NCBI GenBank assembly: GCA_025769875.1
Contig: JAGFNK010000014.1
Location: forward strand, 1-64,000
Direction of reading: 5' to 3'
Length of the DNA: 64,000 nt
Origin: Russula earlei
Lineage: Eukaryota > Basidiomycota > Agaricomycetes > Russulales > Russulaceae
Shown: one piece after another, positions 1 through 57,806 of the stretch
How positions within the stretch are numbered: position 1 is the first letter of the stretch
Layout of the letters: each line of letters begins with the position of its first letter
Position numbers and translations under genes: made by a program
The notes under the pieces: generated by a model
Told to the model about the DNA's origin: nothing
Seen by the model: only the letters and a program-made list of their open reading frames with translations
Database searches by the model: none

Positions 1-70
1 GAGACTATGTCGGCTTGTTTAATACAAATACTCTTACTGACGACCTCTAAGCCCTCTTCTAACAGCTACA

Positions 71-982
71 ATGTCGTCGTCTCAACCCTCTGCCCCTGTT
101 GTCCCCATCCTCGATGGTGCTATCTATGGTATTTGGTCAAAGGCTATGAAAGCCTACCTCATGTCCGTTGGACTGTGGGGTTATTGCAATGGCACTTTTG
201 AACTGCCTGCCATCCCTGCCCTTCCTCAGGCGCCTCTTCCCAAAGAGATTGCTGCCCAGGCTGTCGCTCTGGCAGCTGTGAAAGAATGGAACAAAGGGAA
301 TGATATGGCAGTCGGTCATATGGTCCTTAGATCAAGCATCGTGATCCAACAAGATCTTACATCTTTGGATAACGCTGAGACCATCTGGAATTGCCTAGAT
401 ACCCTTTATGGTATGGCGACTACCACCAGTATCTATAAGGACTTTAAAGAAGCCATCTCCATCCGCATTAACCTGAGCCAGCATCCTGGCCCACAAATGG
501 ATCAGATACACGCTGCATTCCAGCGCCTTACCACATCCTCCCTTATCATTCCTGATGCCTTACAGGCGCTCATCATGCTTGCAGCCATTCCCCCGAAATG
601 GGAAATGCTTGTCCACATCGTCACCCAGAACTATGAACTAGACGATCTTAGTCCAAAACATGTGCGAGAGGCTATTGTCTCTCAATATCAAACTGAGATC
701 AATCGTGGAACAAACAAAAAGCACAGCACACAAAAGCTCTCAGCTGTCAAGCGCAAGCACGGTGACCCCTCCTTCTCCAATCAGCAGCAGGGCAATAAGC
801 CCAAGTGCGATGAAGATAAGGACAAGCGCCAGCGTGGCAAGCACAGCAGCAAAGGAAAAGGGAAAGGCAAGGAGAAGGCTGATAACAGCCATGGTCCCGG
901 ACACTCCCACATTGCGGACGTTGCCGCACTCCCACTCCCGACCATTACCACCATCGCCCATCTGGGTCCTTCGGGGATCTAA
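71..982 (+). CDS. Copia-A Gag protein
   Basis: 303-residue open frame starting at the first ATG after the leader. Residues about 10-210 match the UBN2-type Gag seen in copia elements (an early W-S-K-A-M-K motif, then a helical core). The C-terminal third is strongly basic, with Lys/Gly-rich runs at about residues 240-275. I see no CCHC zinc knuckle, so RNA binding probably relies on the basic tail. The frame ends at TAA 980-982 but stays open immediately after it through the protease, so the stop is either a single inactivating mutation or a readthrough site. Confidence 0.85.
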   Translation: MSSSQPSAPVVPILDGAIYGIWSKAMKAYLMSVGLWGYCNGTFELPAIPALPQAPLPKEIAAQAVALAAVKEWNKGNDMAVGHMVLRSSIVIQQDLTSLDNAETIWNCLDTLYGMATTTSIYKDFKEAISIRINLSQHPGPQMDQIHAAFQRLTTSSLIIPDALQALIMLAAIPPKWEMLVHIVTQNYELDDLSPKHVREAIVSQYQTEINRGTNKKHSTQKLSAVKRKHGDPSFSNQQQGNKPKCDEDKDKRQRGKHSSKGKGKGKEKADNSHGPGHSHIADVAALPLPTITTIAHLGPSGI

Positions 983-3900
983 CAATGTACCGTCCCGACT
1001 GCGACTGACCCTCGCAAACGCACTCACGGCCCTTACAAGGCCTTAAACAAAGCACTTGATCTTGCTGACGATCTTGGGGTAACTCCCACTATACAGACAG
1101 TCAAGACCCTCGAGCAGCGGATCTCGACTCAATCCACTGCCTCGACAAGTGCAGTCAAACTTCCGTCGCCCGTCCCTGACCCCATGGACCAGGACGATAG
1201 CGACTTTGCGCAAACAAACATGTCAGATTTATTCGACATATATGACGGTATCCCAGAAGGTGCTGCCACCCCTGAGCGTGCTCCGACTCCGTCGGATGAA
1301 GCGCTTGATTGGGGCAGCGACCCCAAAGATAACGAAGCATGCGTGCGCCTCCCTCTCTCCTTTCACTCGCTAAAGAACCTATTAGCATCTCCCCAGCCCC
1401 AAAGCGGGCTAGATATGTTTAATAAGTGTTTGCTTGTATCATACAATGTACAAATTAGCGAAGGGACTACTTCCCTTCAAAGTGGATGTAACAAAAATTG
1501 TTCGAGATGTAGAGGAAAGCACGACTTGAGTAAAATGGGATCCTTATGGCTCCTTGACTCTGGCGCATCCGCACACTTCACCTTCGAAATAAAAGACTTT
1601 ATAGAGTATACGCTGGCTTTGCCGCACGAAAGATCCCCTGTTAAAACTGCCGATAACACTATATATGTGGAAGGCAAAGGCGCTGTGTTGCTTTGGCACA
1701 CTGTCAACTCTAAAACGGTTGTCACGTGCATTTCTCCTGTTCTCTATATTCCGAAAATTAACACTCGGATATTATCTATGGGGGAGTTTTTACAACAAGG
1801 GATGCATGCATTAGGGAATAGAAATCATATTTCCCTACGAGAGGACGGACGTATAATCCTGTCCTCTTACCCCTTATTCCTGGGTCAAACCACGTATTGG
1901 TTAGATGCCTCAATTGAAAGCGCGCAAGCGCATTCTCTTATCTACGTGGTAGATTATGATGTCATACACCGACGCCTTGGCCACCCATCTAAGGATGTTG
2001 TAACACATGCTAAGACACATACCAAGGGTCTCCCTGAAGACCTGAAAATCCCTCAGGAACAGCCGGTATGTCCTGGCTGTGCGCAAGGCAAGATGCCTGC
2101 ATCTGCGCACCCCCCTTCTGAAACTCGTGCTTCTGCACCATTCGAGCGTATCCACTTGGACCTGAAGAGTTTCCCTGTGAAGTCGTATCATAAGTACGAA
2201 TATTTCATCAGCTTCATTGACGATTATTCCTCCTATGCATGGATCACACTCTTAAAAAATAAAAAGTCGACCATAATGGCCGTCAAGCAATTCCTTGCTA
2301 TGGTGAAAAACCAATACAAAGCAGGAATCAAAGAGTGGATGTCCGATGCTGGCGGAGAATACAAGTCCGAGGCCTTTGATAACGTCCTGAAGGACGAAGG
2401 AATTAAAATCCTGCAAAGTGCCCCATACACTCCACAACAGAATGGACGCGCAGAGCGCTTTATGCGCACTGTAATGGACAAAGCTCAGGCAATGCACCTT
2501 GAAGCTTGTCTACCTCCTTCCTGGTGGGAATTTGCAGTGAATCATGGGACACACTGTTACAATAGGACACCTGCCAGACGCCTTCAATGGCGTACACCCT
2601 ACGAAGTCCTAAGAAACGAGGTCCCTGATATCTCACACCTCAGAGTATTTGGTTGCGGTGCATATGTGCACATTCCAGAAAAAGCGTCGAGTCAATAAGC
2701 TTTCGCCTAAAAGCGAGCTTATGATCTACCTTGGTCACACTGAGGGGATCAAAGCCTCACTCTTCATGAGGCTCCCAAATAATACGCTTTACACTAATGC
2801 TACCACCCTGTACGATGAGACCCTGTACCCCAAATGCGACAAAGCGCACACTAAAGGTACCATGCAGATAAATGAACCGTGTGAGGAACTACTGCAACAA
2901 CCTGTCGAAGACACCATTCCTGGTGTTGACGACCCATTCCCTACAATTAAAAGTGAGGACAATGAGCAGCCTATACAGGCGCCAGAAGAAGAGGAACGCG
3001 AGCAAATGCCCGTCCCTCCTACACCGTCCCCTCCTCCTGTTGAAGAGCCTGTACCTCTTCGAAGGTCTCAGTGGTTGAGGAAAGTACCTACCCGTCCAGG
3101 CAACGTCTATGGTGAACGCAGACACCCCACAGAAGTGGAAAAAGACGTTCGGCGCACACGCACATGGAGAACAATGACAGAAAACCAACCAGGTAGCTCC
3201 GGTGAGGGTAGTACGTCAGGATCGGCCGCGCCAGGCCCTTACCCTCCTGTCGTCCTTGACGATCAACCGCCGCAAGCCTCTGAGGATGAGGTAGAAGACA
3301 TTCTACATCTAGCAAGGGAAGGGGGAGTCAAATTTCTGAACTATCTGCTCGCCCAAGCAGTTCCACTGAGTTCAGATCCACCTGATACTGCGAAGATTTG
3401 TGAATGGACCTTTAGGGACATTCTGCGAATGCCAAGTGAACTCCAAAAGGAGTGGAAAGATGCTTGTCGCGAGGAGTTGGAATCCCTCTGCAGACGCAAA
3501 GTCTTCGAACTAGTTGATCCTCCCAAGGATCACAAAATAATTAAAAATAGATGGGTATTTGACCTTAAGTCTGATGGTCGTAAAAAAGCCAGACTAGTCA
3601 CCAAAGGCTTCTCCCAAGTAGAAGGCATTGACTATGACGAAATATTCTCACCCGTGGTACGGTTTGAGACAGTCCGCCTGATGATTGCGCTCGCAGCGCT
3701 CAAAAATTGGCACATTAGTGGACTAGACGTCAAGACTGCCTTTCTCTACGGTGAGCTCGATGAAGAGCTCTATATGGAGCAACCTGAGGGCTTCAAAATA
3801 AAAGGACAAGAGTGCAAAGTCATGCGCCTTAAACGCGCAATATATGGACTCAAGCAAGCGGCACTTGCTTGGTGGAAAGCCCTTGACAAGTCCATGGCCT

Positions 3901-4925
3901 CGCTCGGCCTTATTCGCCTTATGTCTGACTCTGGGCTCTTTGTTAGTAAAGACAAGAGCATCATAGCCATTGTCTATGTTGATGATGTGCTCTTCTTTGG
4001 AGCAGACAAAAAACAAATCAATAAAACAAAGGAGCGCTTCATGAAGCTCTGGGAATGTCGAGATCTGGGCGATGCCCAAGAATTTCTACGCATGCGCATC
4101 ATACGCAAGTCTGGGCAAATACATCTGGACCAGACTGAGTATCTAAGGAAAGTGCTGCAGCGTTTCGACTTGCTTAATGCAAACCCTGCTCCTACTCCGC
4201 TACCAGAGGGCTATCACCCCTCTCCCAACACTTCCACTGCTGACCCAGCCTTGCGGTCAAAATTCCAGCAGGTTATAGGATCACTCCTATACATAATGCT
4301 TGGAACGCGTCCAGACATAGCCTTTGCTGTCACAAAGTTGTCGCAACATGCTGCCAATCCCTCAGAGGATCATTTAAATCGTGCATACTATATTTGCCGA
4401 TACCTCCTGGGAACCGCCAATTATGCCTTGGTCTATGATGGACCATCTAATGGCGGTCTAATGGCATATGCTGACTCTGACTGGGCTTCTGATCCGACTA
4501 ATCGGAAGTCCACTACAGGCTATATGGTGAACCTGGCTGGAGCAATATTTTCATGGAACTCACAAGCGCAGAAAACAGTCGCGCTCTCCTCCACTGAAGC
4601 CGAGTACATGTCGCTCTCTGACACGAGCAGACAGTTAGTTTGGATTAAATCCTTACTAACAGAACTTGGCATCAAACTTGCTCCCATCCCACTGTTCGGT
4701 GATAACCAAGGCTCAATATTCTTAGCCTCCAACCCTGTGCAAGAAAAGCGCATCAAACACATTGATTTGCACTATCACTTCATTCGTGAAGTCATACAAA
4801 ATAAACAGGTGGAGCTATTCTTTATTGAAGGGGCTAACAACCCAGCCGACATGTTCACCAAGAACCTTGGTCGCATCAAGTTCCTCAAATTCAGGGAGCA
4901 ACTAGGACTAACATTCTACCCCTGA
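983..4925 (+). pseudogene. Copia-A Pol (protease, integrase, RT, RNase H), one frameshift
   Basis: The frame continues from Gag without an ATG. It carries the protease (LLDSGASAHF, near 1550), the GAG pre-integrase zinc-binding segment (H...H...CPGC, near 1970-2085), and the integrase core with DDYSSYAW, SDAGGEYKS and NGRAERF. At the A run 2679-2683 the reading moves to another frame (open to 4925). That frame holds the RT (RLVTKGFSQVEGIDY, then YVDD near 3980) and the RNase H (YADSDWASD, STEAEYMS, DNQGS). Domain order and spacing are normal for copia. All catalytic motifs are visible, so only the stop at 980 and the A-run indel separate this copy from a full polyprotein. Confidence 0.9.
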
Positions 4926-4962: not shown

Positions 4963-4974
4963 AGCAAGGGGGAG
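4963..4974 (+). other. Polypurine tract of Copia-A
   Basis: Purine run AGCAAGGGGGAG directly abutting the TGTTG start of the 3' LTR, the expected site for plus-strand priming. Confidence 0.75.
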
Positions 4975-5359
4975 TGTTGAACCAGAACCCGAACGGATCA
5001 AAGAAGGCGAAGACCTTCATACAAGGTTCAAGATCCACTCATAGATGTTACATGTTAGACAGAACTTTGGTATATGTGCTTATGGCAATAGGGTTACGCA
5101 TAGTACGCTATCTATCACAAGATGCAGCCTTATGCTGCGTCTAGAACGTTTCCACATCACGCGTCACTTAATGCACGATATAGTGGACACCTGTAGTCAC
5201 CTCTTTTGGACTTAGGAACAGCCCTGGGTCATAGAGGTATAAATACCATACTTGTAGACAAGTATACACATCGCTCTACACCCCAATATCACTTGAGCAT
5301 TAGCACAACCTCTAAGGTGGGTTGCTTGGCCTGTTAGCTGCGCTCTATGCTGCGCAACA
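4975..5359 (+). repeat. 3' LTR of Copia-A (385 bp)
   Basis: Bounded by the short inverted repeat TGTTG...CAACA. It begins immediately after the polypurine tract and carries a TATA-like box at 5238-5245 (TATAAATA), consistent with the U3 promoter. The partner LTR is off the left edge, so divergence cannot be judged. Confidence 0.85.
5238..5245 (+). promoter_or_regulatory. TATA-like box in Copia-A LTR
   Basis: TATAAATA inside the LTR, about 120 bp before its 3' end; the likely U3 core promoter element. Confidence 0.5.
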
Positions 5360-5483
5360 GAATTGACTCAGCTCAGATTACAAAACAAAATATTTTTAAA
5401 CAATTGATTGATTTGTTGCCCTCTCCTCATGCATCACATTATTGTAAATATGTCAACCCAAACAATTAGAAATTAGGTGAATG

Positions 5484-7220
5484 CTTACTGTCGTTTTCAC
5501 GTGACCTTGCACTTGCCATTTTTGGATGTCATTTCGAGTGCAAAAATAAAACTGCTATATCTCAACAGTTTCTCAACAGATTGCCTTGAAACTTTGACAG
5601 TAGAACCTTATATGCTGTATCTAGGTGCAGCTAAAATATGGGAGCCTAATATTTAGTTCTTGAAATGTCGATTTTCAGGTGGTGACATGAGTGCAAAACT
5701 TTGAACTGCCATATCTCAACTGTTTCTGAACCAATTGACTTGAAACTTCAACAGTGGGATCCCATGTACTGTATCTAGGTGCAGCCCAAGAGTTGGGGTC
5801 TGATTCTTAGTTTTTGAAGTTTCGGTTTTTGGGTGTGATCTGAGTTCAAAATTTTGATCTGCCATATCTCAACCATTTCTCAATAGATTGCCTTGAAACG
5901 TGGACAGTGGGACCTTATATACTGTATCTGGGTGCAGCGAAAATATGGGAGCCTAATATTCAGTTTTTGAAGTTTCAATTTTTGGGTGCTGAGCTGCATG
6001 CAAAATTTCGTACTGCCATGTCTCAACCATTTCTCAATGGATTGTCTTGAAACTTGGACAGTGGAACCTCATGCACTGTAGCTAGATGTTTCACTCGTTG
6101 GATGTTCACGTTTTTGGGTGCCAACCCCAAGCATGATAATATTACATTATCCCTACAGCTGAATCCATCCATGATATGATATGACTATTACAACTGTACT
6201 GGGCGAGAAGGGTACACTTAAGTTCATGGGGCTGGACAAGGACTGAGGGAAGAGTGAAAGAGACAAAATTGAAATGATGATGCAAGGCGTGCGTCAAGGC
6301 AGCAATAGGCATCGGCACAGGTACATGTGCATGTAGCTTCTTCAGTGAGTCTTCAGCCTCGTGCGCGCGTGGTCACATCATCACAAAGGGGGGTGTGCAC
6401 GTTCTGAGGTGTTGCAATGCGTTGGAACGTGGGCACAGTGCTGGGAAGCAGGAGGGAGGAGTGTGCTTGCATCGTGTGTCAAATGTGTCGTCACGACATG
6501 GTGTTGCCAGGCGTCGGCCGTGTTGCTGATATTGGTGCTGCTGCTGTTGTTGTTGTTGATCCTGGTGCTGCTGTCATGGCAGAGGCTGAGGCATGGTCAT
6601 TTGAGGCAATGGGGTGGCGAGAGGCAAGGGTGTAGGCGATGGCGTTATGGAAAGGCGTGAGCATCTGAGGGGGTGACTTGCATGTTGCTCGTGCTGTCAT
6701 CTTGTGGGCGCGGCGACAAGGTCTTCGCCACTGCAGGTGATGGCAGCGCTTGTGGGTGAGGTTGTACGTATGGATGGGGATGCGGTGGAAGGGGAGGAGT
6801 GGTGCGGCGTGGTGCTTGCATCGGTGACTTCTCCTGTGGCGACATCATGGTGGCGGCTGGTGATCTTTCTGTGGGGCGGCATCGAGGTAATGATGGGCGA
6901 TGCTGGATGTGTGGGAACCGCAGGGACAACAGGAGCAGGTGATGTGAAAGGATGACATTTCAGCAACCGTACCCACTGTTATGGGGCAGGGTGGGGAATG
7001 TGGTGGTGTGGGCTTTGCCTGGAGTCGCATAGAAGTGCGGCTGTGTGTGCGCATACATTGGGCAGCAGAGAGGTGATGTCATGCCGGGTGGGAGAGCGGG
7101 TAAACGCGTGCATGCACCGAGGGGGTCCAGGGGGCGTGATCCATTCGTTGTGAAGGGAAGTAGGATGTTCACATCCTCAGAAAGCACCGAAGAGTGTCCT
7201 GCCGGTGAGAAGGGACGAGC
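5484..7220 (+). repeat. Left arm of the giant inverted repeat (1737 bp)
   Basis: Pairs with 7622-9361 in reverse complement along its whole length. The outer ~0.75 kb includes four 154-bp subrepeats. The inner ~0.9 kb is GC-richer and includes a CTG-rich run near 6535-6570, mirrored by a CAG-rich run near 8270-8305. Confidence 0.9.
5551..6100 (+). repeat. Four ~154-bp tandem subrepeats in the left arm
   Basis: The phrase CTGCCATATCTCAAC and its variants recur at 5551, 5705, 5858 and 6012, each followed by a TTGAAAC segment, an ACAGT segment and (in the first three) a TATCTAGGTGCAGC-like segment. The spacing is 153-154 bp. Units differ from each other more than the two arms do, so the tandem array is older than the arm-to-arm match or has been homogenised with it. 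Confidence 0.85.
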
Positions 7221-7621
7221 ATGACATGTCCACAGCAATGTCGCTCAGAGGTGCCTTGGACTCCGATGTTGAGGATGCAAGAAGTAGACCTGTCTCTTCA
7301 AAGGTCTCCCAGATTGCCATCATTTGATACAAATCATCCTGCTTCCTGTTGCGGTTGCCTCCAGGAGAGACCTGGGTGATACAGGCTGGGTGGGATCAGC
7401 CAAAGGTACACGCACAATGTCACCACCACTTGGATAAGCAATATGTAGATTCAAATAGTGTGAGAATGTGTGAGTAAGCACTCCAGTGCTAGTGCTAGCA
7501 TGCACAAGTGGAAATCTGGAACCACGATTGTGAATACAAGATTACAGATAGGAAAACAAGAGAGAGAAGAGACAAGCAATCTGACTTATTCCTACATAGG
7601 TCTCCTGGTGCTTTTCTTATA
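7221..7621. other. Unique loop between the inverted-repeat arms
   Basis: About 400 bp with no counterpart in either arm and no supported gene. It is the single-stranded loop if the arms pair as DNA or RNA. Confidence 0.7.
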
Positions 7622-9361
7622 GCTCATCCCTTCTCACCGGCAGGACACTCTTCGGCGCTTTCTGAGGATGTGAACATCCTACTTCCCTTCACAACGAATG
7701 GATCACACCCCCTGGACCCCCTCGGTGCATGTGCGCATTTACCCGCTCTCCCACCCGGCATGACATCACCTCTCTGCTGCCCAATGTATGCACACACACA
7801 GCCGCACTTCTATGCGACTCCAGGCAAAACCCACACCACCGCATTCCCCACCCTGCCCCGTAACAGTGGGTATGGTTGCTGAAATGTCATGCCTTCACAT
7901 CACCTGCTCCCATCGTCCCTGCAGTTCCCACACATCCAGCATTGCCCATCATTACCTTGACGCCGCCCCACAGAAAGATCACCAGCCGCCACCATGATGT
8001 CGCCACAGGAGAAGTCACCAATGCAATCACCACGCCACACCACTCCTCCCCTTCCACCGCATCCCCATCCATACGTACAACCTCACCCACAAGCGCTGCC
8101 ATCACCTGCAGTGGCGAAGACCTCATCACTGCGCCCACAAGATGACAGCACAAGCAACATGCAAGTCACCCCCTCAGATGCTCACGCCTTTCCATAACGC
8201 CATCGCCTATGCCCTTGCCTCTCGCCACCCCATTGCCTCAAATGACCACGCCTCAGCCTCTGCCATGACAGCAGCACCAGGATCAATGACAACAACAGCA
8301 GCAGCAGCACCAATATCAGCAACACAGCTGACACCTGGCAACACCACGTTGCAATGACACATTTGACACACAACACAAGCACACTCCTCCCTCCTGCTTC
8401 CTAGCACTGTGCCCGCATTCCAACGCATTGCAACACCTCAGAACATGCACACCCCCCTTTGTGATGATGTGACCATGCACACGCGAGGCCGAAGACTCAC
8501 TGAAGAAGCTACACACACATGTACCCGTGCCAATGCCTATTGCTGCCTTGACGCACGCCTCGCGTCATCATTTCAATTTTGTCTCTTTCACTCTTCCCTC
8601 AGTCCTTGTCCAGCCCCATGAACTTAAGTGTGCCCTTCTCACGCGGTACAGTTGTAATAGTCATATCATATCATGGATGGATTCAGCTGTAGGGATAATG
8701 TAATATTATCATGCTTGGGGTTGGCACCCCAAAACATGAACATCCAACAAGTGAAACATCTAGCTACAGTGCATGAGGTTCCACTGTCCAAGTTTCAAGA
8801 CAATCCATTGAGAAATGGATGAGACATGGCAGTACAAAATTTCACACGCAGCTCGGCACCCAAAAATTGAAACTTCAAAAACTGAATATTAGGCTCCCAT
8901 ATTTTCGCTGCACCCAGATACAGTATATAAGGTCCCACTGTCCACGTTTCAAGGCAATCTATTGAGAAACGGTTGAGATATGGCAGATCGAAATTTTGAA
9001 CTCAGATCACACCCAAAAACTGAAACTTCAAAAACTAAGAATCAGACCCCAACTCTTGGGCTGCACCTAGATACAGTACATGGGATCCCACTGTTGAAGT
9101 TTCAAGTCAATTGGTTCAGAAACAGTTGAGATATGGCAGTTCAAAGTTTTGCACTCATGTCACCACCTGAAAATCGACATTTCAAGAACTAAATATTAGG
9201 CTCCCATATTTTAGCTGCACCTAGATACAGCATATAAGGTTCTACTGTCAAAGTTTCAAGGCAATCTGTTGAGAAACTGTTGAGATATAGCAGTTTTATT
9301 TTCGCACTCAAAATGACATCCAAAAATGGCAAGTGCAAGGTCACGTGAAAACGACAGTAAG
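7622..9361 (-). repeat. Right arm of the giant inverted repeat (1740 bp)
   Basis: Reverse complement of 5484-7220. Small length differences and scattered substitutions separate the arms, including substitutions that change the mirrored open frames. This suggests the arms have drifted since they formed. Confidence 0.9.
8750..9297 (-). repeat. Four ~154-bp tandem subrepeats in the right arm
   Basis: Mirror image of the left-arm array, read on the minus strand, with the same unit order from the outside inward. Confidence 0.85.
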
Positions 9362-19064: not shown

Positions 19065-22000
19065 ATGAGCGCCCCCACAGCAACCGCAAACGTCGCGCCC
19101 TCGAGAGGCAGCCACGCTCCCACCGTAGGAGCCGCGGGAAAAACTTACATGGGCGGCCAACACGGTTATGACGGACCACTCTTCGAAGGTGGCACGGTCG
19201 CGTACACACAATGGAAAGCTGAAATAGAGGCAGTATTCAAAACAAACGGCCTGATGGAAATCATAAGAGGGACATACTCAAAACCGGACCCCAGCAATGA
19301 CCCGAGCGGCTTCGCCGACTGGGAGCAGAAAGATCGCGAAGCACACGCCCACATTTTACTCACGTTAAAAGGGCACGCTCTCGACACTGCCCTAGGCATT
19401 GCTGGAGCCAAACATACTTGGGACACACTCGAAAAACATTTTGCAGGGAAGGGCGAGCAACGCGTCGCACATTTACTTATGGACCTATACCGGGTCACGT
19501 TCTCCGAAACTGAACCCATGGCTCCTCAAATAATCCGACAGTTGCACGCCGCCCGAGCCCTCGAAAAATTCGGATACCCCATCGACGAGAAAACCCTCAT
19601 ATGGATGCTAATTCTCGCGCTACCGGAAAACATGGCCAAACTCAAGGCCACTCTTCACTCGACGCCGCCCAACCTGCTTACAGCCGAGCACGTCACAGAC
19701 CGCATCCTCCATGAGGAGCGTCGGATCCGACCGACCGGTGACGCGGCTACGACTCACATTGCAAAGGCGACCCAAATGAGAAAGAGCCGGGAAACGCAAA
19801 GCGAGAAAGGCACAACATCACAGTGCACTCACTGCAGACGCAGGGGGCACAATACACACAAATGCTGGAAAATTCACGGAAAACTGGAGGACAAAGCAGC
19901 AGCAGCTAGGACTGGCACGGGTGCGCACAACGCAGCGACGCCCACGACCACTGGGACCGGCACAAGCGCGCACATCGCAGCGACGCCCACGCCCGCAATG
20001 ACTGGCACGGGTGCGCACAACGCAGCGACGCCCACGACCACTGGGACTGGCACAAGCGCGCACATCGTGGCGACGCCTGTAGCTCAGCTACCAGCCAGCG
20101 CTGCCATCGCATACGTCCCCACATCCGATAACAGCATTTCATTACATCTGGCAGTCGAAGATGAGCCAATCCGTGCGTCCACGACCCGAGAGCAACTCCG
20201 AGCCGCCAATCTCAGAAACGGCTGGCTCCTCGACTCCGGAGCCTCAAGAATCATGACTCCCCACTCAAATTGGTTCACACATCTCACCCCGCTCGCATCG
20301 CCCATTCAAGTCGCCTTAGGCGACGATAGCGCAATAACCGCCACCGGAACCGGACAAGTGCTAGTCCGGATGCGCGCACGCGGCGTGTGGAGTACTGCGA
20401 TACTCCGCGACGTCCTGCACGTACCGGACCTCAATGGAAACCTCTTATCGGTTTCTCACCTCGCTCAACGCGGGGCGGAAGTGCGCTTCCAGGGGCAGAC
20501 TTGCGGGATATACAATAAAGCAAACAAATTGATTTGTGAGGGAACATTACATGACAACTTATACATTATGGCCATCGAAATGCCAACACTCGAGTCGGCG
20601 CGCACAACAATGCCACACCAACCTCTCGCGGAAGGTGGCCACAAAACCGAAGCCGCGCTTACCACGCGCACGACGATCTTCCGGGCCTCCTCGGACACAT
20701 GCTCCGAACAGGTTGCGACCCGGACAGACGATAAACCACAGGAACGCGCCAGCGGGCTGAAGCGCAAATCAGAAGCGCCCCAGCACCTCCAACCGCACAC
20801 CGCGCGCGTTGAGCCCACAACCGGGCAACACTTGAAGACCTCCTGTATGAATGGAGGGGGCAAACACACCGGGCAGGCATTGCAAACATCCCTAGCAGAA
20901 AAGGAAATTAAGCACCAGACCACCAACCCGGATATGCCACATCTCACCGACGTCGCCGAACGCGCGACCCGGACACCTCTTAATAGGGTCCGGGCGACGC
21001 GTACAGACACAAAACCGTCCACGCGCGCCTTGGACGACTTGACGCTCGAAGAGGCACGGAGCGGGGACAACCCCGACCCCTCTCAGCCGCACGTCCTCGG
21101 AACGCGCGCGTCTGCACACGCCCCGGAGAAGAGACCCACCACGCTGACCCGAAGGTCGCTGGTGCACACGTTCCCGGGCCACGCATATCACCAGCAGGCA
21201 TACAAGCCTGCACATCTCCCCACCCCCCGCACCCTTCAACCCCGCGCCGTCATATCCGACGAAGGGGGCCCCACATCGCGCATCAAGCGCGTGATCCTCG
21301 AATTCGACGACGCAGTCGAAAGAGTCGAAAAAGGGGAAATGAGAATGAAGTCAAGGGGGCGGCGAAGACGGAACCAGCGGACAACGCGGAACAACCGCCG
21401 CACGCAAAGCCGCAAGGCGTCGGAGCAGAGGACCCCCTGCCCGCTCAGCCTGAAACAGGCAGACAACGCGGAGCAGGCGCCGCGCACCGAACCGCAGGGC
21501 GTCATAGTGGATGCGATTCCACCTGCTCAGCCTGAAACACCACAAAGTCAGCTCACAATTCACAAGGCAGAAGACTCACCTGCGCAATCCGCCACGGGAC
21601 CACCAAAGCGCATCACACGCGCGCTCACACCCGACCAAGGCGACGAAGCGGAGGAGCCGAATGAAGAAGAAGCGGAAAAGGCATCGCATGCCAAACCGCA
21701 AGACACACAGCTGCAACGCGATAACAACGCACCTGAGGACCAAGCTTCCTCACAACCTGAAATGCGCCCAAAACGCGCCACTCGCACACCCGTCCATGAC
21801 AAGGACGCTCGCCATTCCCCCATCCCGCATGAGCACCGAATGAAACATACCGAGCAGGGAAACGCGGCACACAAAAATGTAGCCATTAACCCCAAGTCCT
21901 ATGCTGAGGCGACAACCCATGCAGATTCTACCGAACGGGCAAAGGCGTGCAACAAAGAGAAACGCGTGTCCGAAAACACGGGCATTCTCAAAAGTGTGCC

Positions 22001-29977: not shown

Positions 29978-30150
29978 TGTCACTTATGCGTTGGACTGGA
30001 ATTTTGAATTGAAGCTTGTCAAAAATGGATGAGACCGCGGCGTACAAAATGTAGAAAGATTTGTGGTAACGAGTACCTGCTCGTATGGAGTGAATGTGAG
30101 CACAGCTGGAGAGAATCATTTTCTGTAGCCATTGGCTTTATAGTGATCCA
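29978..30150 (-). promoter_or_regulatory. Conserved promoter block of SSP copy 2
   Basis: Closely matches 41202-41375 and 43008-43182. Shared points on the minus strand are TATAAAG with CCAATGCC, a GAGCAGGTACTCGTTACC-like segment, and AGCTTCA about 40 bp before the ATG. Confidence 0.65.
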
Positions 30151-31149
30151 AGACAGTTGTCTTGGTCCAAGAGCAAGGGAAGGGAAGAGAGGGAGAAGGG
30201 AGAAGACAGGTGAGATGACTTGCATGTGGTCATTTTGGGCTGACAGATACTAGGAGACACAAGGGGACTGTATTATTATTTGTACTAGTTAGTGCTTTCA
30301 TGTCAGGTCACATTGACTGCAAAAAACTGCTTGACTGAACCTGACCTGACTGATCATGACTGAACTTTCAGTCAAGGTCAAACTGGTTTGTAGAATTGCC
30401 AGTCACAGTCACATCAACTTTCAAACAAGATAAAAACTGGTTATGACTGGTCATGACTGGTGTGCCTGGTGCCTGGTGTGCCTGGTGTGCCTGGGATTTC
30501 TGTCAAAATTTCATGGCTTTGAAAATTATGGTCACAGCTTTAGGCAAGCTCTAAACCACCAGTGTGGTGTGTCCAGGGATGCATGAGTGTGAAAGAGTGG
30601 GGCTGTTAGACCAGTAAGTGGACATTGACTGAGGAACCAGAGGTGGGAGCAAGAAGGGGAGAGAGGAGCTGGTATCACAGGCATGGTTGTTGTTCAAAGT
30701 TCTTCATTTGAGCAGAGGCAGATGTCAAAGGAAAGGGGATATTATTCTTCTCTCTCTTTACTACAGAGTAACTAAGGGTTTTATATACATGGGGGGAAAT
30801 ACAAAGAGTAGAAGATAATGAAAGGAAATGGAATGGTGAAAGGGAATCAGAGGATCGGGACCGGGCAAGGCAGTCAAGGCCATGGTGAAAGGTTTGAGAT
30901 GCAAACACATCGCCTGAGCCAGGGTGTGATGTGCATGTGTGGTCAGTGGGGAGGGGTGGGCGATGTGGTGGAGGTCTTGACATTGGGTGCGAGGTGGTAG
31001 TGTGGGCATGTGGTCAGTGGTGAAGGATAAAAGGGATGGAGCATCACATCATGATTGTCCATCGCAGTTCTGCATGTGATTCCATGACCAGTCGTGATTC
31101 ACCTAACAACAGATGACTGGTCATAACCTGTCATAATGTGAACCTCTTC
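30151..31149. other. Low-complexity and repeat-like spacer
   Basis: It has many TGACTGGTCATGACTGG-type segments at 30290-30500 and again near 31080-31140, plus a short TGCCTGGTG microsatellite near 30460-30495. No gene. Confidence 0.5.
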
Positions 31150-32289
31150 CTATACCTAGAGGTTCTGTGTGTGTTCAAGGCAGAGGTGGAGACAAGGTGA
31201 GATGATGTGAGGGAGGAGACATGGCGGTGATGGGCTGTGACACATGGGCACGAGATGAACACGAACACATGAAAATGCAGCCTGCAAAGCAGAATGAATC
31301 AGAAAGCTGTGAAAACAAAAGAAAGAGGGGAAAAAAAAAAAACACACATGGCTCAATGCATGAAAATCATGCATGCAGGAAAAGATGCATTGCATGCCAT
31401 CAGGATTTTGAGTTAGGGATTGGCTGTGTAGCCTGCCAGAATGGGCACGTGTAGTCCGTGGGACTTGATCTGAGGGCAGGTACAGACTAGGGACAAGCTG
31501 AAAGCAAGGTTGTGCCCCAGACCAATGCTCAATGCTCCGGAGGAGCACATACACGAGAGAGTGTGTGTGTGTTTGTGTGTGTTCTTGAGAGAATTGTTCA
31601 TGCAGGTGAATGAGGAGAGGGCAAACATGGGTGTGATAGATTGCAAGAAACTGCAAAACTCAACTCTTATTTGAGACTGTGGCTAGTAGCCTTAAATACT
31701 GTAGCAAAAAGTAAGAGAGAGTCAGGTAATCCAAGACATGAATGAGGAGACAACTACATGAGAATCCTATTCCTTCAACTGCAAGTCTGCAAGCGCAAGG
31801 CAGTGCGGCGAGGACAAATGGGTGAGGCACTGTGGGCAACGAGCCCTCAGATTGAGTGACAATGATGACGGCGAATGCATCAATGGGGTCTGTGCGTAGT
31901 TGTGTGATGGGTGCGAGGACGACGATTTGTGAATGATGATGGAGAGGTGAGAGTGAAATGAAAGGGAATTGACAACGGGTGAGAGCGATATGACAAAAAG
32001 ATGGGGAGCATGAGGCAGACAAAGTGACTGGTGGCGCAAGGGATGGATGTGGATGGGGGAGTGCAAGGCACGGGCAAATGGGTGACATTGGAGGTGATTG
32101 GGTTGAGCTGCTGTCACTGTTCCCAGGTGCAGAGTGGGGAACACGGTGGTGACGTTGAAAAATTGGCACAAGAGGGAAGGAGAATATGAAATAAAAAGAG
32201 TGGCAGCAGCTGGATGGGGAGTGGAGAGATGACGCGTGGGAGGTGGGGGCGAGTGTGAGTTTCCTGGTCAGCGGGCTCAGACACCTTAC
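31150..32289 (-). repeat. Unclassified repeat, family 2, copy 1
   Basis: On the minus strand it aligns in patches with the plus strand of 35113-36290. Both begin near TAAGGTGT and share CAGTATTTAAGG with a CTACAGTCTCAAATGA-like run. Later both share CCTCAGATCAAGTCCCA. The TATTTAAG segment could be a TATA box, so this may be an LTR of another element. No coding capacity was recognised. Confidence 0.55.
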
Positions 32290-33226
32290 TGTCATGAACC
32301 ATTCTCCAGAGAGGGCCCTTAAAGGACCCTTCTTTATGAGAGGAAACCCAGCCTCTATGGTGTCACCCTGTTCACATGAGCAAAAGGGGTGAGTAGAGGT
32401 GTCCACAATATCATGTGCGCATTGTCATGCGAGCAATTCTCAGCACAATCAACATACAGCAAGCCCCACTTAATGGAAACCCCTTTTAGCAATAAAGGAC
32501 AGTATTAGGGCCTTCCTAAGGACCCTTTAGGATGACTCTAGGTGCCCTACAATAAGCACTGACACAGTATCAAAGACCCTACAATGTGTTATTAGACTAA
32601 CTCTAATAACTATAGAACAAACTACGAGGCAATACTAAGGACCTTAATAGAAGTATTAGGGTCGACTCTAAGGACCCTAATAGAACTATATAAGGGGCCT
32701 TATAAGATAACACTATTCCCTAAAGCAAACTACAAGTCCTCAAATGACCGGCCCTAAACTAACTAACAGAAAATGAATCAGGTGCTTGCACATGTACTAA
32801 AGCAGTGAACATGTGGACAGTGAAAGCTCTTACTCAGCAGCTTACTGAGCATGACTGAGCATGCTCAGTAAGCGCACTCCGACTTCTTACTCATCACTCT
32901 TTTGTGCTTGATAACAAGGTTATGACTTGTTCCCTATTTAGCAGTTCTCCTGTAGTATATAAGCGCTCCATAAAGTAGTGGACAGTCCTCAGACTGTCCA
33001 TTTGTTTATGGCATTCTCTATCCCTAGGATACTCCTTTCAGGACCATCCCCTTGTGACCATTCTGGCCTCTTCCCTGCATACCTGCTCAACTCTACCAGT
33101 AACTATACCTCTTTGGTATTTGTTACTGCTTTGGACTCTACTTCTTGCCCATGCCATCTTGGACATCTATTGACTCATCTTTGAACTAACCCCTCACTCT
33201 TGAACTGGATTGTTCAACAGTGAGTC
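32290..33226 (+). repeat. Solo-LTR family 1, copy A (3' end lost)
   Basis: Starts TGTCATGAACC and runs to TTCAACAGTGAGTC, but lacks the terminal TTGACA found in copies B-D. It contains a TATATAAG promoter-like box near 32957. It faces copy B tail to tail across 185 bp. Confidence 0.8.
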
Positions 33227-33411
33227 ACTCTGTAGTAGAAAGAGTTCAGAATAGGACCCCTCTTTGCAACCCACTCCTCTCTGTCTGTGAAAAACAAGAA
33301 GGATGGTCAGAATGGAGAGGCAAGAGGGGTGATGAGTGGCTGGCCGTGACTCCGATTGCACTGGAAACAATGTTGCACACCACAACACTTGAGTCAAAAA
33401 CACTATGGGGC

Positions 33412-34353
33412 TGTCAAGACTCACTGTTGAACAATCCAGTTCAAGAGCGAGGGGTTAGTTCAAAGACGAGTCAATAGACATCCAAGATGGCATGGGCAAG
33501 GAGTAGGGTCCAGAGTAGTAACAAATACCAAAGGGGTATAGTTACTGGTAAGGTTGAGCAGGTACACAGAGAGGAGGCCAGGATAGTCACAAGGGGACAG
33601 TCCTTAAAGGAGTATCCCAGGAATGGAGAGTGCTGTAAACAAATGGACAGTCTGAGGACTGTCCGTTACTTTATTGAGCACTTATATACTACAAGAGAAC
33701 TGCTAAATAAGGAACAAGTCATAACCTTGTTATCAAGCACAATAGAGTGATGAGTAAGAAGTCGGAGTGCGCTTACTGAGCATGCTTAGTCATGCTCAGT
33801 AAGCTGCTGAGTAAGAGCTTTCACTGTCCACGTGTTCACTGCTTTAGTACATGTGCAAGCACCTGATTCATTTTCTGTTAGTTAGTTTAGGGCCAGTCAT
33901 TTGAGGACTTGTAGTTTGCTTTAGGGAATAGTGTTATCTTATAAGGCCCCTTATATAGTTCTATTAGGGTCCTTAGAGTCAACCCTGATACTTCTATTAA
34001 GGTCCTTAGTATTGCCTCATAGTTTGTTCTATAGTTATTAGAGTTAGTCTAATAACACATTGTAGGGTCTTTGATACTGTGTCAGTGCTTATTGTAGGGC
34101 ACCTAGAGTCGTCCTAAAGGGTCCTTAGGAAGGCCCTAATACTGTCCTTTATTGCTAAAAGGGTTTCCATTAAGTGGGGCTTGCTGTATGTTGATTGTGC
34201 TGAGAATTGCTCGCACGACAATGCGCGCACGATATTGTGGACACCTCTACTCACCCCTTTTGCTTGTGTGAACAGGGTGACACCATAGAGGCTGGGTTTC
34301 CTCTCATAAGGAAGGGTCCTTCAAGGGCCCTCTCTGGAGAATGGTTCATGACA
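33412..34353 (-). repeat. Solo-LTR family 1, copy B
   Basis: Complete 942-bp copy in minus orientation, ends TGTCA/TGACA. It is flanked by the direct repeat GGGGC at 33407-33411 and 34354-34358, so it is an independent insertion that left a solo LTR. Confidence 0.88.
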
Positions 34354-35112
34354 GGGGCTGCCTCAAGACAGCCCATGGGTACAACATGAGGGAAAAATAA
34401 TAGATATAGACCACGATTTTGAGTTGTAATTCATCTAATACACATGTGGAGGTGGCTTGAGTCCAGCTCCACCAATTCTCACTCAAATCTCATGAAAACA
34501 ATGGGGCTGCCTAGCCCTCATTTAGGCGATTCAGGGACAATGAATTTCATATGAATTGAAGCTGTTTTGAGGGAGATATTTATCCCGCATGTTTGAGGGG
34601 GTTTCTGTGCTGATTTGGGTGGAATTCAAGCTCCGCTGAGTGCGCTGAAAATGGCAATAATATAATTTAACACATACTGATTGAACCAGAACATCTTGCC
34701 AAAGACTGGACTGCACCAATTTATGGTTTTTTTGCTCCTCACCCATCCATAAAAATCATTGATGACCAGCAGTGCTGTCATGAATTCCAATGTGGAGCTA
34801 CCCACTGTAAAGGGAAAGGCTGAAATGCATGGATAGTTCGATACTTCTTGAACATGGAAGATCAGAAGTTGACAAGCAACCTGCATAAACATGCTATACA
34901 TTGCTGGGGCATTGACATCATCAAAGAAGTATATGAAGCTGTGGAGAACAAGGATGTTGGTATTGACAACATTTGGAAAGACCTTGCGGCCACAAAAACA
35001 CAAAGGACAGCTCAATTACTGCTGTGTTTGAATGGCAAGGAACAGGGAAGCATACCTATTCTACACATCCCCATACCTATATAGAAACTCAGTAAGATTC
35101 AGTCTCCAAACT

Positions 35113-36290
35113 CTTGTAAGGTGTGTGAGTCTGCTGACCCAAAACCTCATGTGACTTGTATCAGCACCTTGCACCTCCCACGCTTCGCATCCTCACACAC
35201 ACACTCTCTGGTCTTTCATCCCTTGTCCCACTCCTTCCAACTATCATCACTCCTTTCTCCCTCTTTCTCCCTCCATCTTGTGTTCCCCTTTCAACGTCAT
35301 TCCCTTGCATTGCCCACTCTACACCCAGCAACAGCAACAATGGCTCAGTTTGATTGCCTCCGACATCACTCACCTCGCCACTCAATGCCTTCCTTGTTGG
35401 TCTTGAAGTTGGAGCTCGGCTCCTCCAAGCATCGACCTATGGCACAACATCATCACTGTTTGCCCGTGTCTCACCCTCCTTTGTTGTCATCCATCCCCTC
35501 TGCCACTAGTCTCCTCCACCTGTGTCACTCTTCCCTTCCCCTCATCATTATGCTCTTGCCCCTCATTGAACCCCTTTCATTGGGTGCTTGCTCCTCTGCA
35601 AAAAGGCTATGAATCACTCTCCTCACCCCTGCCTCGCGTCTATGCATGGACCAGTATGACATCTTCATCTTCATCATCACCACTCTACCCAAGGGCTTGC
35701 TGCCCATAGCATCTTGCCCCCTTCATCATCATCACACCACCCCACGCTTGTGGACTCACAGTCAGAGGGATAGGATCTTGGTATGCTCTTGACTGGTATA
35801 CTGTACTGCTACCAATTCCCATCCTGCTTCGTTTACTTACCCTCCAATTTCACTAAACATTGCCTCATTCCAGTTAGTGTAGAATGTCTTATGCCTTGAT
35901 TCTGGTTTGTGTTCCATTGTGACATCATACTCGCCTACTTACTCATCTTGTCTCACATCCTCTATCCCTCTGCTTGCTTGATTACCTGCTTTTCCTCTGC
36001 CTTTGCTGCAGTATTTAAGGACTGGTAGCTACAGTCTCAAATGACAGTTAGTGGGCAGTCTTCTGCTCCCCTTTTGCCCCCTTTGTCTGTCAGTGAGAAC
36101 AACTCCTCACTTGAAAGCCCCTTTCACCTTTCAAAACTTCTCTTCATGCACATGAAGTATCCAGTGCTCATGCCCGAGGGACAGCTCTACTCTTGGTCAA
36201 TCTCAGTTCCTCCCCACCCTCAGATCAAGTCCCAAGAACCTCACATGCCCCATGGTGGCTCACTTCACTCTGCAGCAGGGCTGACTAATG
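35113..36290 (+). repeat. Unclassified repeat, family 2, copy 2 (inside the hAT relic)
   Basis: Homologous in patches to 31150-32289 (opposite strand). It separates two parts of the hAT N-terminal coding sequence. Confidence 0.5.
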
Positions 36291-36709
36291 GGATTAGTAT
36301 TGAATGTGTCAAATGGGTGTCAAAGAATTTGAGAAGCTTCCACATCATTGAGGATGAGGAGTTCATTTGTATGATGAAGACAGGGCAACTGAGTTATCGG
36401 ATTCCAAATACAAAGATGGTGGAAAATGATGTTCTCATCATCTTTCATCATGTTAAGGATTGCATAGCTGAAATGGTGCAGGTCAGTGTCAATTCCTTTT
36501 TTGAATTTGTTTGATAACTCATGATGATCCAGAACTATGACAGCTGCTTGAACTTTGCTACAGATGCATGGATGTCACCAAACAACCAAGCATTTATTGC
36601 TCTGTCTGTCCACTTTGAAAATAAAGGCATACCAATGTGCCTGCTTCTGGATGTTGTAGAGCTCCTGATATCCCACACTGGACTGATTCTTGCTACTGCA
36701 TTTGCAAGG

Positions 36710-37677
36710 TGTCATGAACCATTTCCCAGAGAGGGCCCTTGAAGGACCCTTCCTTATGAGAGGAAACCTAGCCTCTATGGTGTCACCCTGTTCACACAGA
36801 CAAAAGGGGTGAGTAGAGGTGTCCACAATATCGCGCGCACATTGTCGCATGAGCAATTCTCGGCACAATCGACATACAGCAAGCCCCACTTAATGGCAAC
36901 CCTTTTAGCAATAAAGGACAGTACTATAGCCCCCCTAAGGACCCTTTAGGATGACCCTAAGTGCCCTACAATAGGCACTGATACAATACTAAAAACCCTA
37001 CAATGTGTTATTAGACCGACTCTAATAACTATAGAACGAATCATAAAGCAACACTAAGGATCTTAGTAGGAGTATTAGGGTCGACTCTAAGGACCCTAAT
37101 AGAACTATATAAAGGGCCTTATAGACGACTCTATTCCTTGGACCAAACTACAAGTCCTCAAATGACCAGCCCTAAACTAACTAACAGCAAATGAATCAGG
37201 TGCTTTGCACATGTACTAAAGCAGTGAACATGTGGTCAGTAAGGGCTCTTACTCATCAAGAGAAGCCTTCTTACTCAGCAGCTTAATGAGCATGACTGAG
37301 CATGCTCAGTAAGTGCACCCCAACTTCTTACTCATCACTCTATTGTGCTTGATAACAAGGTTATGACTTGTTCCCTATTTAGCAGTTCTCTTGTAGTATA
37401 TAAGCACTCAATAAAGTAACGGACAGTCCTCAGACTGTCCATTTGTTTATGGCACTCTCCTTCTCTGGGATACTCCTTTAAGGACCATCCATCCCCTTGT
37501 GACCATCCTGGCCTCTTCCCTGCGTGCCTGCTCAACTTTACCAGTAACCATACCACTTTGGCATTTGGTACTACTCTGGACTCTACTCCTTGCGCACATG
37601 GTCTTGGATGTCTATCGACTTGTCTTTGAGCTAATCCCTTGCTCTTGAACTGGATAGTTCAACAGTGAGTCCTGACA
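36710..37677 (+). repeat. Solo-LTR family 1, copy C
   Basis: 968 bp, TGTCA...TGACA, flanked by CAAGG at 36705-36709 and 37678-37682. It lies within the hAT core: coding sequence stops at ATAFA and resumes with LDEFG directly after it. Confidence 0.92.
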
Positions 37678-39334
37678 CAAGGGTTCTTGATGAGTTTGGC
37701 ATTTCAGACAAGGCATTTATTTCATTGGATATCTGATTCAGTCAAATCTCATGGCAGATCACAATAGATTCTATGTGTCACATGTGATAATGTAAGCACA
37801 AACAATGCCATGGTGTCAGCCCTGGCAGACATTATTACTGTGGTCCAGTTGATCGCATGTGATGTCTTGCTCACATCATCAATCTGGTAGTACAAGTCAT
37901 CCTGCATCAATTTGATAAGCCAAAAAAGAAAAAGAAGCACACCAACCAAAAGCAACAAAGTGAGAAAGCTCATGAACAGCATCAGGAGCTGGAATATGAC
38001 TCAGATACTGAGAAGGAGGGCAATGAAGAGGAGGAGGGTGAGATGGACAAGATGGGTATCGGGGATGGGGATGATGACATGGTGGATGGTATGGAAGCTG
38101 CCATGAAACAAGACAAGGTGTTGGCAGATGAACACATCAAGTCAATAAGACAAGCCTTATCAAAGGTAAGTTCATGGCCACCTTATCTCCTCCACCTTAA
38201 CATGACTCAACTTGACTCTGTCATTGTTTGGGGTATTGCATCATGCCAATGATGTTCAGCTTCACCAACTCTCAAACCAAATCAAAAACTCATCAATGTT
38301 GATCCTCCCTCATTGGAAAGAGGCCATCAAAGAGCTCACACCAACATCAGACAAGAACCTCACAGTTCACAAGATGCCTCGGGATGTATGCACATGGTGG
38401 AATTCAATGTACAATATGCTAAAGTTTGCATACAAGTATCAGGAAGTAGTCACCAAGATCACTAGCAAATGGAGTCTCAAGCTTTGGAAGTATGAACTAT
38501 CAGAGGGTGAGTGGGATTTGGTGAAGGAGCTCCAGGACTGCCTCAAGGTACAGGCAAGTGATTATGTGCTTTGACTACTATGCTAATGGCAGTATGGTGT
38601 GCTTAGGTCTTTAAATCACTAACACTGGTGTTTTCAAGTGACATGCCCTGCCTCACAATTGTCATCCCTGCCATGGACCATATGCATTCTGAGCTACAGT
38701 CTATGAATTCTAGCTACAAAAAACATGGACCAGCACTTTGCATGATGCTCACACTTGGTTTAAACTTGCTTGACAAGTACAACTCCTTGATGGACCATTC
38801 AGAGGTCTATCAGATTGCAATCAGTATGTTGTCTTATCTTACACACATAAATTTTGACTTCCAATATTATAGTCCTCCATCCACATTACAAATTATGGTA
38901 CTTTGAAAAGCATGAATGAGATGAGGAGTGGATTAGAGCAGCTAAGAGGATTATCCATGATGAGTTCAAAAGTACATATAGCAACTATATAATCCTCAAG
39001 ACATCAGCAGCTCACCCATCCAAAAAATCCAAGTTGAAGGTTTGTGACACATATTCAGTATGACCTATTTGATGAGTATCTAATACTATCACCCCTCTGC
39101 AGTGCAAGAACATTGACAGTGACTCAGATGAGGATGGTCAGAGCTCAGCCATGAGTTCCTCAGAGGAGGAAGACTTCATGACTGAAGTAGATTGATACCT
39201 TTTGATGGCACAAGTCAAGGATGTTGATGACCCACTATCTTGGTGGTATGAGAACCGAGGAACATATCCCTGTTTATGGCACATGGCAAGGGACTATCTC
39301 ACCATCCCTGGTTTGTCAAATCTTTGACAGTAAT

Positions 39335-40296
39335 TGTCATGAACCATTTCCCAGAGAGGGCCCTAGAAGGACCCTTCCTTATTAGAGGAAACCCAGCCTC
39401 TATGATTCCACCCTGTTCACATGGACAAAAGGGGTGAGTAGAGGTGTCCACAATATCATGCACACATTGTCGCACAATTCATTCTAGGCACAATCAACAT
39501 ACAGCAAGCCCTACTTAGTGACAACCCTTCTAGCAATATAAGACAGTTTCATAGGCTCCCTAAAGACCCTTTATGACAACCCAAAGTGCTCTACAATAGA
39601 CACTAACAGAGATACTATAGGCCCTATAACACATTATTAGACTAACTCTAATAACCTTAGAACAAACTATAATGCAATACTAAGGACCTTAATAGAAGTA
39701 TTAGGGTTGACTCTAAGGACCCTAATAGAACTATATAAGGGGCCTTATGGACAACTCTACTCCCTGAACCAAACTACAAGTCCTCAGATGACCAGCCCTA
39801 AACTAACTAACAGTAAATGAATCGGGTGCTTTGCACATGTACTCTAACCTATAAACATGTGGACACTAAAGGCTCTTACTCATCAAATGAGCCTTCTTAC
39901 TCAGCAGCTTACTGAGCATGACTGAGCATGCTCAGTAAGCATACTCAGACTTCTTACTCATCCAACAAGTGTGCTTGATAACAAGGTGATGACTTGTTCC
40001 TTATTTAGCAGTTCTCTTGTAGTATATAAGCACTCAATAAAGTATCAGACAGTCTTCAGATTGTCCATTTGAATTGCGGCACTCTATTATGGAGGGTACT
40101 CCTTTAGGACCACCCTATCTAGCACACTCTGGCTCTCTCTTCATGATCACCTCTCACAACCCATACCAGTTCCTCTCTGGTACTTGTTACTCGTTTGGAC
40201 TATACTCTTTGCTAACTTCATCTTGGAACTCAGTCAACTCATCTCTGAGTTCTTACCTTGCTCTTGAACAGGATTGTTCAACAGTGAGTCTTGACA
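39335..40296 (+). repeat. Solo-LTR family 1, copy D
   Basis: 962 bp, TGTCA...TGACA. The flanks GTAAT and GTAGC agree only in three of five bases, so the duplication has mutated or the copy arose by recombination. It lies at the truncated 3' end of the hAT relic. Confidence 0.85.
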
Positions 40297-40804
40297 GTAG
40301 CATGGCAAACCCATACCCTTACACCAAGGGTACAGGTATAAACAGGTACAGGTCAGGGTCCTTGGATTTTTACCTGTGGGTTACCCATGGCAAACACCAG
40401 GCCAGTGATGATGAAGCAGCCTGTAGCTGCTGCTCATACATATGGTCTAATTGGTCTTGTACTGGCCAACTTGACTGCCTGTAACATGGCCTGATGGTGA
40501 TGGACCAGATCTAGTTGATTGTTTCTACAAGTCTATGCTCTCAAACATTCAACCTCTGCCCTCTGCCATGACAGAAGGTGTGATGCAGGCATGACCCCCA
40601 GCTAAAATATTCCTCAAAAATGACTTGACAGACCTCCATTTTTTTTAATAGAATGGCATTAATGGCACTCAATAGTATAAATACAAAGTTTTAAATGGAG
40701 TTGTTCAAGCAGATACAGTGGAAAATGAAATTAGCAAGATGGTGATCAATTGGCAAGTTCCTGATCTTCAATCTTCACCTGCAGTATATTGGCATCTTTA
40801 CAGG
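40297..40804. other. No gene recognised
   Basis: AT-rich spacer between solo LTR D and SSP copy 3; it includes a short GGTACAGGTATAAACAGG-type repeat near 40329. Confidence 0.5.
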
Positions 40805-57680: not shown

Positions 57681-57806
57681 GGAGGTCGAACAGGAAAGCA
57701 CAGGAGAGGGCTGAGGCTGAGCGAGATGCTTGAAGGATTGCTGATGTGGCTGCACTGAAATGCCAGGATTGTCGACGATGTGCAATCCCGTACGTTCAAT
57801 GTACCC

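Follow-up and report, generated by a model that had tools for sequence, protein, structure and literature searches.

How does a fungal contig come to carry a palindrome of almost four kilobases, and what could move such an element? The question is raised by a giant inverted repeat in the first 64,000 nucleotides of contig JAGFNK010000014.1 of the basidiomycete Russula earlei (GenBank assembly GCA_025769875.1); this whole stretch is called the window here. We conclude, with a probability of about 0.86, that the palindrome is a high-copy non-autonomous foldback DNA transposon, derived from and most likely moved in trans by a Tc1/mariner element of about 5.75 kb. The foldback family, its tips, its TTAA target, the outer 720 bp that it shares with a relative, and the transposase carried by that relative are established. 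All searches covered the genome assembly of the window (66.6 Mb, 1374 contigs). Labels beginning with L denote fetched loci, and labels beginning with C denote contigs of the genome.

Self-comparison of the window resolved the palindrome into two collinear inverted blocks, at 5484-6573/8272-9361 (1090 nt, 95%) and at 6533-7220/7622-8309 (688 nt, 95%). An earlier note on this DNA had described an imperfectly matching inverted repeat of about 3.9 kb, with arms of about 1.74 kb built partly from tandem subrepeats around a 401-bp loop. This description was confirmed, with 77 differences over 1736 aligned arm positions. The limits that it had given, 5484 and 9361, did not hold entirely. The palindrome is real, but 32 of 40 full-length matches to a 217-bp end probe started at the second base, and hence the C/G pair at 5484/9361 is mostly fortuitous. 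Comparison with other copies set the true ends at 5485 and 9360, with the tip TTACTGTCG... The features are as follows.

5485..9360, no strand: entire foldback element (3876 bp, with its TTA/TAA boundary bases)
5486..5487, no strand: left TA of the presumed target duplication (target TTAA = T at 5485, TA, and A at 9360, from empty sites of other copies)
9358..9359, no strand: right TA of the presumed target duplication (placed from empty sites of other copies)
5485..7220, plus strand: left arm (1736 bp)
7221..7621, no strand: loop (401 bp; 90-100% identity among copies, for the best 40 of 81 candidates)
7622..9360, minus strand: right arm (1739 bp; 95.6% identical to the left arm)
5485..6230, plus strand: left outer arm domain (common to the inverted repeats of the transposase-bearing relative, 86-87%)
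8615..9360, minus strand: right outer arm domain (mirror of the left; inner limit approximate)
6231..7220, plus strand: left inner arm domain (nothing corresponding found in L059, the relative with the transposase)
7622..8614, minus strand: right inner arm domain (outer limit approximate)
5536..6085, plus strand: left tandem subrepeats (period 154 bp, 3.6 copies)
8760..9295, minus strand: right tandem subrepeats (period 154 bp, 3.5 copies)
5485..5505, plus strand: left tip, used as the genome-wide probe (contains the palindrome TCACGTGA)
9340..9360, minus strand: right tip

Five open reading frames of at least 100 amino acids lie wholly inside the element, and none of these five gave a Pfam match (E 0.1); a sixth, crossing the right end, was left out. 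Together with the long inverted arms, the subrepeats, the loop and the other copies in inverted pairs, this fits the foldback architecture that had been proposed. The absence of a transposase likewise holds for the window copy as far as these reading frames go, but not for a relative with identical tips, which carries a transposase of the Tc1/mariner type.

The genome contains many copies of this element. The 21-bp tip matched the genome 437 times at up to three mismatches (reversed-pattern control: 2), and a 24-bp loop word matched 75 times (control: 0). Tip positions were taken from 100 of the 437 matches, and counts of tip pairs are therefore lower bounds. At least 30 of the 75 loops had an inward-facing tip at 1838-2095 bp, compared with 0.3 expected. 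The 217-bp end probe found 40 full-length copies with 98-100% identity in 29 places (best 40 of 622 candidates). Both ends were already visible in 11 of these places, which answers the proposal to look for further outer ends in inverted pairs.

We sampled 21 loci, i.e. the window and 20 of the 28 other places (every one of the ten where two ends were visible, plus ten more with a single visible end). In total, 14 of the 21 loci held a complete copy, 3856-4384 bp long and matching the loop. The loop of L028 matched partially, and one of its arms was mis-cut for that reason. The other seven loci were L018 and L021 (both ends, with insertions), L020 (running into a contig end), and L019, L023, L024 and L026 (truncated or broken). 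Arm length varies usually, though not obligatorily, in foldback elements; here, both arms measured 1736-1749 bp in 12 of the 14 complete copies, and those of L012 measured 1993-1995 bp. The region L027:1953-7013 contained a complete copy and, 510 bp further on, the left end of another copy.

Large insertions were found in one arm only of L018, L021 and L037. Those at L018:4667-8653 and L037:391-3809 are a PIF/Harbinger element with ends GGCCCATGATACCAACCGAG, flanked in L018 by TAA on both sides. Pfam searches of pieces of L018 identified DDE_Tnp_4 in this element (terminal inverted repeat GGCCCATG...), and the DNA of L037 is 97-99% identical. The transposases inside these long copies belong to the insertion with its own ends and were rejected as partners of the foldback. 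PIF/Harbinger membership of the foldback itself was also rejected, as the combination of a TAA/TTA duplication and DDE_Tnp_4 was present solely in these later insertions.

Among 150 matches to the transposase domain PF13358 (DDE_3; best 150 of 408 candidates), the best one, C1:152322-152678, lies between inward-facing tips at C1:148819 and 154569. The element delimited by these tips (L059) is 5751 bp long, with 721-bp inverted repeats that are 99.3% alike and with the same TTA/TAA ends as the foldback. These repeats, together with their subrepeats, align to the outermost 720-750 bp of the window arm at 86-87% identity. The transposase of L059 is in pieces, two of which matched DDE_3 (E 7e-9 and 6e-8), while one piece of 22 amino acids had no match. 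Helix-turn-helix matches were weaker: HTH_Tnp_Tc3_2 had an E of 2.6e-6 with 28.1 bits, below its cut-off of 31.5, HTH_33 had an E of 1.2e-4 with 22 bits against a cut-off of 25, and HTH_23 had an E of 0.11. A DDE_3-type transposase between identical tips, as expected of a Tc1/mariner partner, was thus found.

The transposase DNA of L059 occurred in 40 places with 88-100% identity (best 40 of 81 candidates), at least eight of which had an inward-facing tip within 8 kb. Distances to the tip on the C-terminal side were 1717, 1722, 1850, 1870 and 2140 bp, and C1 had tips on both sides. The length of L059 predicted the far end of the copy on C12 near 287890, and it was found at 287900. The inner arms and the loop of the foldback have no counterpart in L059, which implies that the foldback retains the ends of its partner with different contents. 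No source for the inner arm and loop was found in L059 or in the rest of the window.

Besides the transposase, L059 carries at 1540-2103 (minus strand) a fragment resembling acetyl-CoA synthetase (AMP-binding, E 6e-9; best relative among solved structures 5ifi, E 9e-45). In 14 of the 40 places, this fragment sits 5' of the transposase at a spacing of 774-814 bp, and nine more pairs of fragment and transposase on the same contig have other spacings (693-8239 bp). A second group of fragments, about 80% identical, includes inverted pairs at C33:72800/75158 and C366:25878/27641, which perhaps represent another foldback lineage.

The earlier note had also proposed an alignment of empty sites. We carried this out on unfilled copies of host repeats within the fetched flanks, in the same genome and for copies other than that of the window. 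The filled site of L022, aligned by eye, reads ...TATA-TTA[element]TAA-GGTCC, and an unfilled repeat copy in its own flank reads TATA-TTAAG-GTCC. Other unfilled relatives of this site, also read by eye, were CTTAA-TATA in L026 (opposite strand) and CTTAG in L013, and those of the L016 and L010 sites were TTGA and TCAA. All sites that were read fit insertion into TTAA, if no more than a single change is allowed for in the unfilled copy. The central TA of TTAA may thereby be doubled, although clean insertion between TT and AA would fit equally, because TTAA is palindromic.

This target, together with the size of the element, separates the family from several other classes. No target duplication of 3-9 bases was seen by eye beside the element ends, which argues against foldbacks of the Mutator or Galileo/P type with their duplications of about 7-9 bp. 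PiggyBac and Kolobok elements need a full TTAA on both sides, but the ends read here are TTAC...GTAA, with single-base variants. The Tc4 family needs CTNAG with TNA duplicated, and the target here is TTAA. Miniature inverted-repeat transposable elements are well under 1 kb, and this element measures 3.9 kb.

The two arms of a copy appear to have evolved together. In the 14 complete copies, the arms within a copy were 95.5-99.9% alike. Trees built from all columns and from non-CpG columns grouped them as sisters in 13 of the 14 copies, with L013 as the exception in both, although some of these groupings had weak support (0.44 and 0.52 for L027 and L028 in non-CpG columns). Of 32 non-CpG variants present in exactly two of the 28 arms, 26 paired within one copy, where 1.2 were expected. 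Moreover, both arms of L012 contain an identical internal duplication of about 245 bp. Joint decay of CpG columns in both arms exceeded independence in 13 of the 14 copies; L012 had 32 columns decayed in both arms (4.9 expected) and four in one arm, and L013 had none decayed in both. Conversely, 53 private non-CpG variants were confined to one arm, which weighs against continuous exchange.

These shared changes imply that one arm passes sequence to the other. They would be expected from gene conversion or arm-templated repair, but not from a founder palindrome whose arms never exchanged sequence; such transfer may take place while a new copy arises or earlier. Collapse of the arms by the assembler could mimic sharing in the copies that are most alike, but hardly in those with many differences. 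It is possible, if doubtful, that by the time of each transposition one arm has been rewritten from the other via a hairpin, such that new copies would be near-perfect palindromes whatever the state of the parent. L012 would fit this, with arms that are 99.8% alike despite their shared decayed CpG columns; damage would then be copied along rather than repaired. For L012, this contradicts the idea that new copies start with undamaged CpG.

Comparison of the 28 arms with the majority base gave 1520 substitutions, of which 1419 were transitions and 1192 were C-to-T changes at CpG. The C-to-T rate per site and arm was 0.18 at CpG, compared with 0.002-0.006 at other C. The base preceding CG was nearly irrelevant (0.167-0.207 across NCG contexts). 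After insertion, copies would thus decay mainly via C-to-T changes at CpG, as expected for methylated DNA. The parts of the literature that we consulted associate the CpG signatures of basidiomycetes with Masc2-like enzymes and with methylcytosine deamination, and report a TpCpG preference for Microbotryum (PMC4352252). Mutation of this latter type is ruled out here, since all NCG contexts change alike.

Observed/expected CpG ratios, calculated for five fetched elements and the window copy, were 0.96 in L013 and L014, 0.75 in L012, 0.66 in L059, 0.51 in the window copy and 0.45 in L017. Per kilobase, the window outside 1-11, 30-41 and 56-58 kb had ratios of about 0.8-1.3. Its region 30001-41000 is strongly depleted in CpG (0.05-0.42) and is probably old silenced mobile DNA. 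DNA-methylase matches were found on three contigs of the genome, the best one with three stops in frame, and Piwi matches were found on six contigs.

From these results, we propose that the foldback derives from a partner of the Tc1/mariner superfamily with 720-bp inverted repeats that contain the subrepeats, and with identical tips. A transposase of the L059 type would recognize the foldback tips, cut and paste the element in trans, and double the central TA of TTAA.

Several observations weigh against this proposal. No transposition event was observed. The transposase pieces of L059 lie in different frames with stops between them, although introns may explain part of these breaks; L059 is the sole copy that was read, and it may not encode a working enzyme. 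Distances to the tip on the N-terminal side are inconstant (2780 bp on C1, 2808 on C85, 3623 on C111, 3763 on C239 and 5252 on C320), and both tips were found in only two partner copies, those on C1 and C12. On C186 the far arm was found, ending at about 78088, but its tip fails a pattern allowing five mismatches. Furthermore, nothing in L059 matches the inner arms and loop, and the palindromic TTAA leaves TA doubling indistinguishable from insertion without duplication. Finally, a second PF13358 match between tips (C571:14342-14776) lies in a copy with a foldback loop. One arm of this copy (C571:13809-19301) has an extra 1.6 kb; the DDE_3 match, of the abundant Tc1 class, lies inside this arm and is apparently a later insertion. 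Hence, a location between tips does not suffice to mark a DDE_3 gene as the partner.

Among the alternatives, the palindrome could be mainly a silencing locus, from which long double-stranded RNA is diced and silences the partner through the shared 720-bp repeats. It would then act like Mu killer in maize. The 86-87% identity of the outer 720-750 bp to the partner, the Piwi and DNA-methylase matches and the heavy CpG decay are all in line with this idea. However, CpG decay is not special to the element, as the region at 30-41 kb shows, and 75 dispersed loops resemble a mobile family rather than one regulatory locus. We therefore consider this explanation unlikely. As an effect of a mobile foldback, silencing of the partner is plausible, as hairpin RNA from the foldback would match the partner's repeats. 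The earlier note had regarded such a transcript as a natural substrate for Dicer and quelling, to which it may be exposed here.

It is also quite improbable that the DDE_3 gene is a passenger in an amplified founder, and that a different kind of enzyme moves the tips, such as one that inserts into TTAA without duplication. The ambiguous reading of the target leaves room for such an enzyme; in addition, the partner already carries another passenger in 14 of 40 places, the acetyl-CoA-synthetase-like fragment, and the copy on C571 houses a DDE_3 gene of an abundant class. Yet the target fits a superfamily that inserts at TA, the transposase lies at a similar distance from the C-terminal-side tip in four copies (1717-1870 bp), and L059 lacks the foldback loop and inner arms.

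Searches for other carriers of the tips also spoke against a passenger. The pogo class (PF03184) gave 151 matches (best 150 of 238 candidates) and was rejected as the partner, with no good tip in the 20 loci that were read; a tolerance of up to six mismatches gave a single, poor match there, in L047. Tips with a different adjoining sequence were found in 12 places in one search (control 2) and in 40 in another (control 20), about half of which may be chance. No two of the places listed in these searches faced each other, and one place was read. Three places of the first search (on C106, C256 and C1297) and one of the second (on C162) are ordinary foldbacks in a decayed state, each with a listed loop at a distance of about 2 kb. 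At the place that was read, on C279 (L058), a separate insert of about 400 bp, which looks palindromic by eye, interrupts an ordinary foldback tip.

That a single arm was wrongly mirrored by the assembler is hardly credible: palindromes assemble poorly, the contig of L020 ends inside an arm, and the arms of L012, L013 and L014 are 99.5-99.9% alike, but there are 77 differences between the window arms, 14 copies are flanked on either side by different sequences, and some insertions affect one arm only.

The window contains further repeats. A pogo-type element at approximately 55324-58359 has a DDE_1 piece at 56462-56872 (E 4e-14) and perfectly matching inverted ends with TATTACCCTGTACATTCGTC; a script scan of the window for TA-flanked inverted ends found them only around this element. 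Frames named by eye as those of a Copia-like retrotransposon occupy 41-4925. The adjacent stretch at about 4973-5360, which is repeated beside the foldback copies L009 (90%) and L016 (97%), is perhaps its terminal repeat. A tandem array of 45-bp units (3.8 copies) lies at 19909-20077.

With the foldback as a mobile family, a fungal genome is now at hand in which such a family and a candidate partner have been identified. At one extreme, copies such as L013 and L014 have near-identical arms and show little decay at CpG; at the other, L017 and the window copy are diverged and decayed. Hence, the same genome could allow tests of arm-to-arm copying, decay by methylation and a possible effect of hairpin RNA on the partner. 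Such elements could escape annotation pipelines that look for a transposase or for short ends.

How does this family compare with known systems? Tc4 of Caenorhabditis elegans consists of short foldback copies and a longer transposase-bearing variant, Tc4v, with arms of about 0.77 kb compared with 1.74 kb here. In the parts of the source that we consulted, Tc4 is classed with Tc1/mariner (and is a fold-back element according to a title cited there), and its target is palindromic with only the centre duplicated, as may be the case here; it differs in its target CTNAG, with TNA duplicated, and in its DDD enzyme (PMC11071193). The same source states that Tc4 consensus sequences had been deposited only from nematodes and arthropods, to which it adds tardigrades.

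Tetris of Drosophila virilis, as described in the portion of PMC4079207 available to us, is likewise an apparently non-autonomous foldback, with inverted repeats of up to 1,735 bp and tandem repeats of about 220 bp. It has ends in common with another element, and both are thought to be moved by one autonomous element, which is not named in that portion. In contrast to the family described here, Tetris comes from an insect, varies in its number of tandem repeats and in its middle domain, and has three structurally complete copies. Tm1 of root-knot nematodes also has foldback-like composite inverted repeats and both transposase-bearing and other members, but excerpts of PMC3169594 describe it as Mutator-like with a 9-bp target duplication. 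The long-terminal-inverted-repeat (LTIR) mariner-like elements of aphids share the Tc1/mariner superfamily and have inverted repeats of about 460 bp, shorter than the 720 bp found here; they are from an insect, and the word foldback is absent from the paper that describes them (PMC5490172).

For fungi, the matches listed in the open-access literature under foldback or fold-back included no foldback family, in agreement with the earlier note, which knew of no well-described fungal family of this kind. Nor is one described in the consulted parts of PMC4079207, PMC4352252, PMC5490172, PMC3411680, PMC11071193, PMC6829131 and PMC3169594. Tc4 shows that foldbacks of the Tc1 group exist, and the kind is therefore already known; what is new here is the host, the target, the make-up of the arms and the partner.

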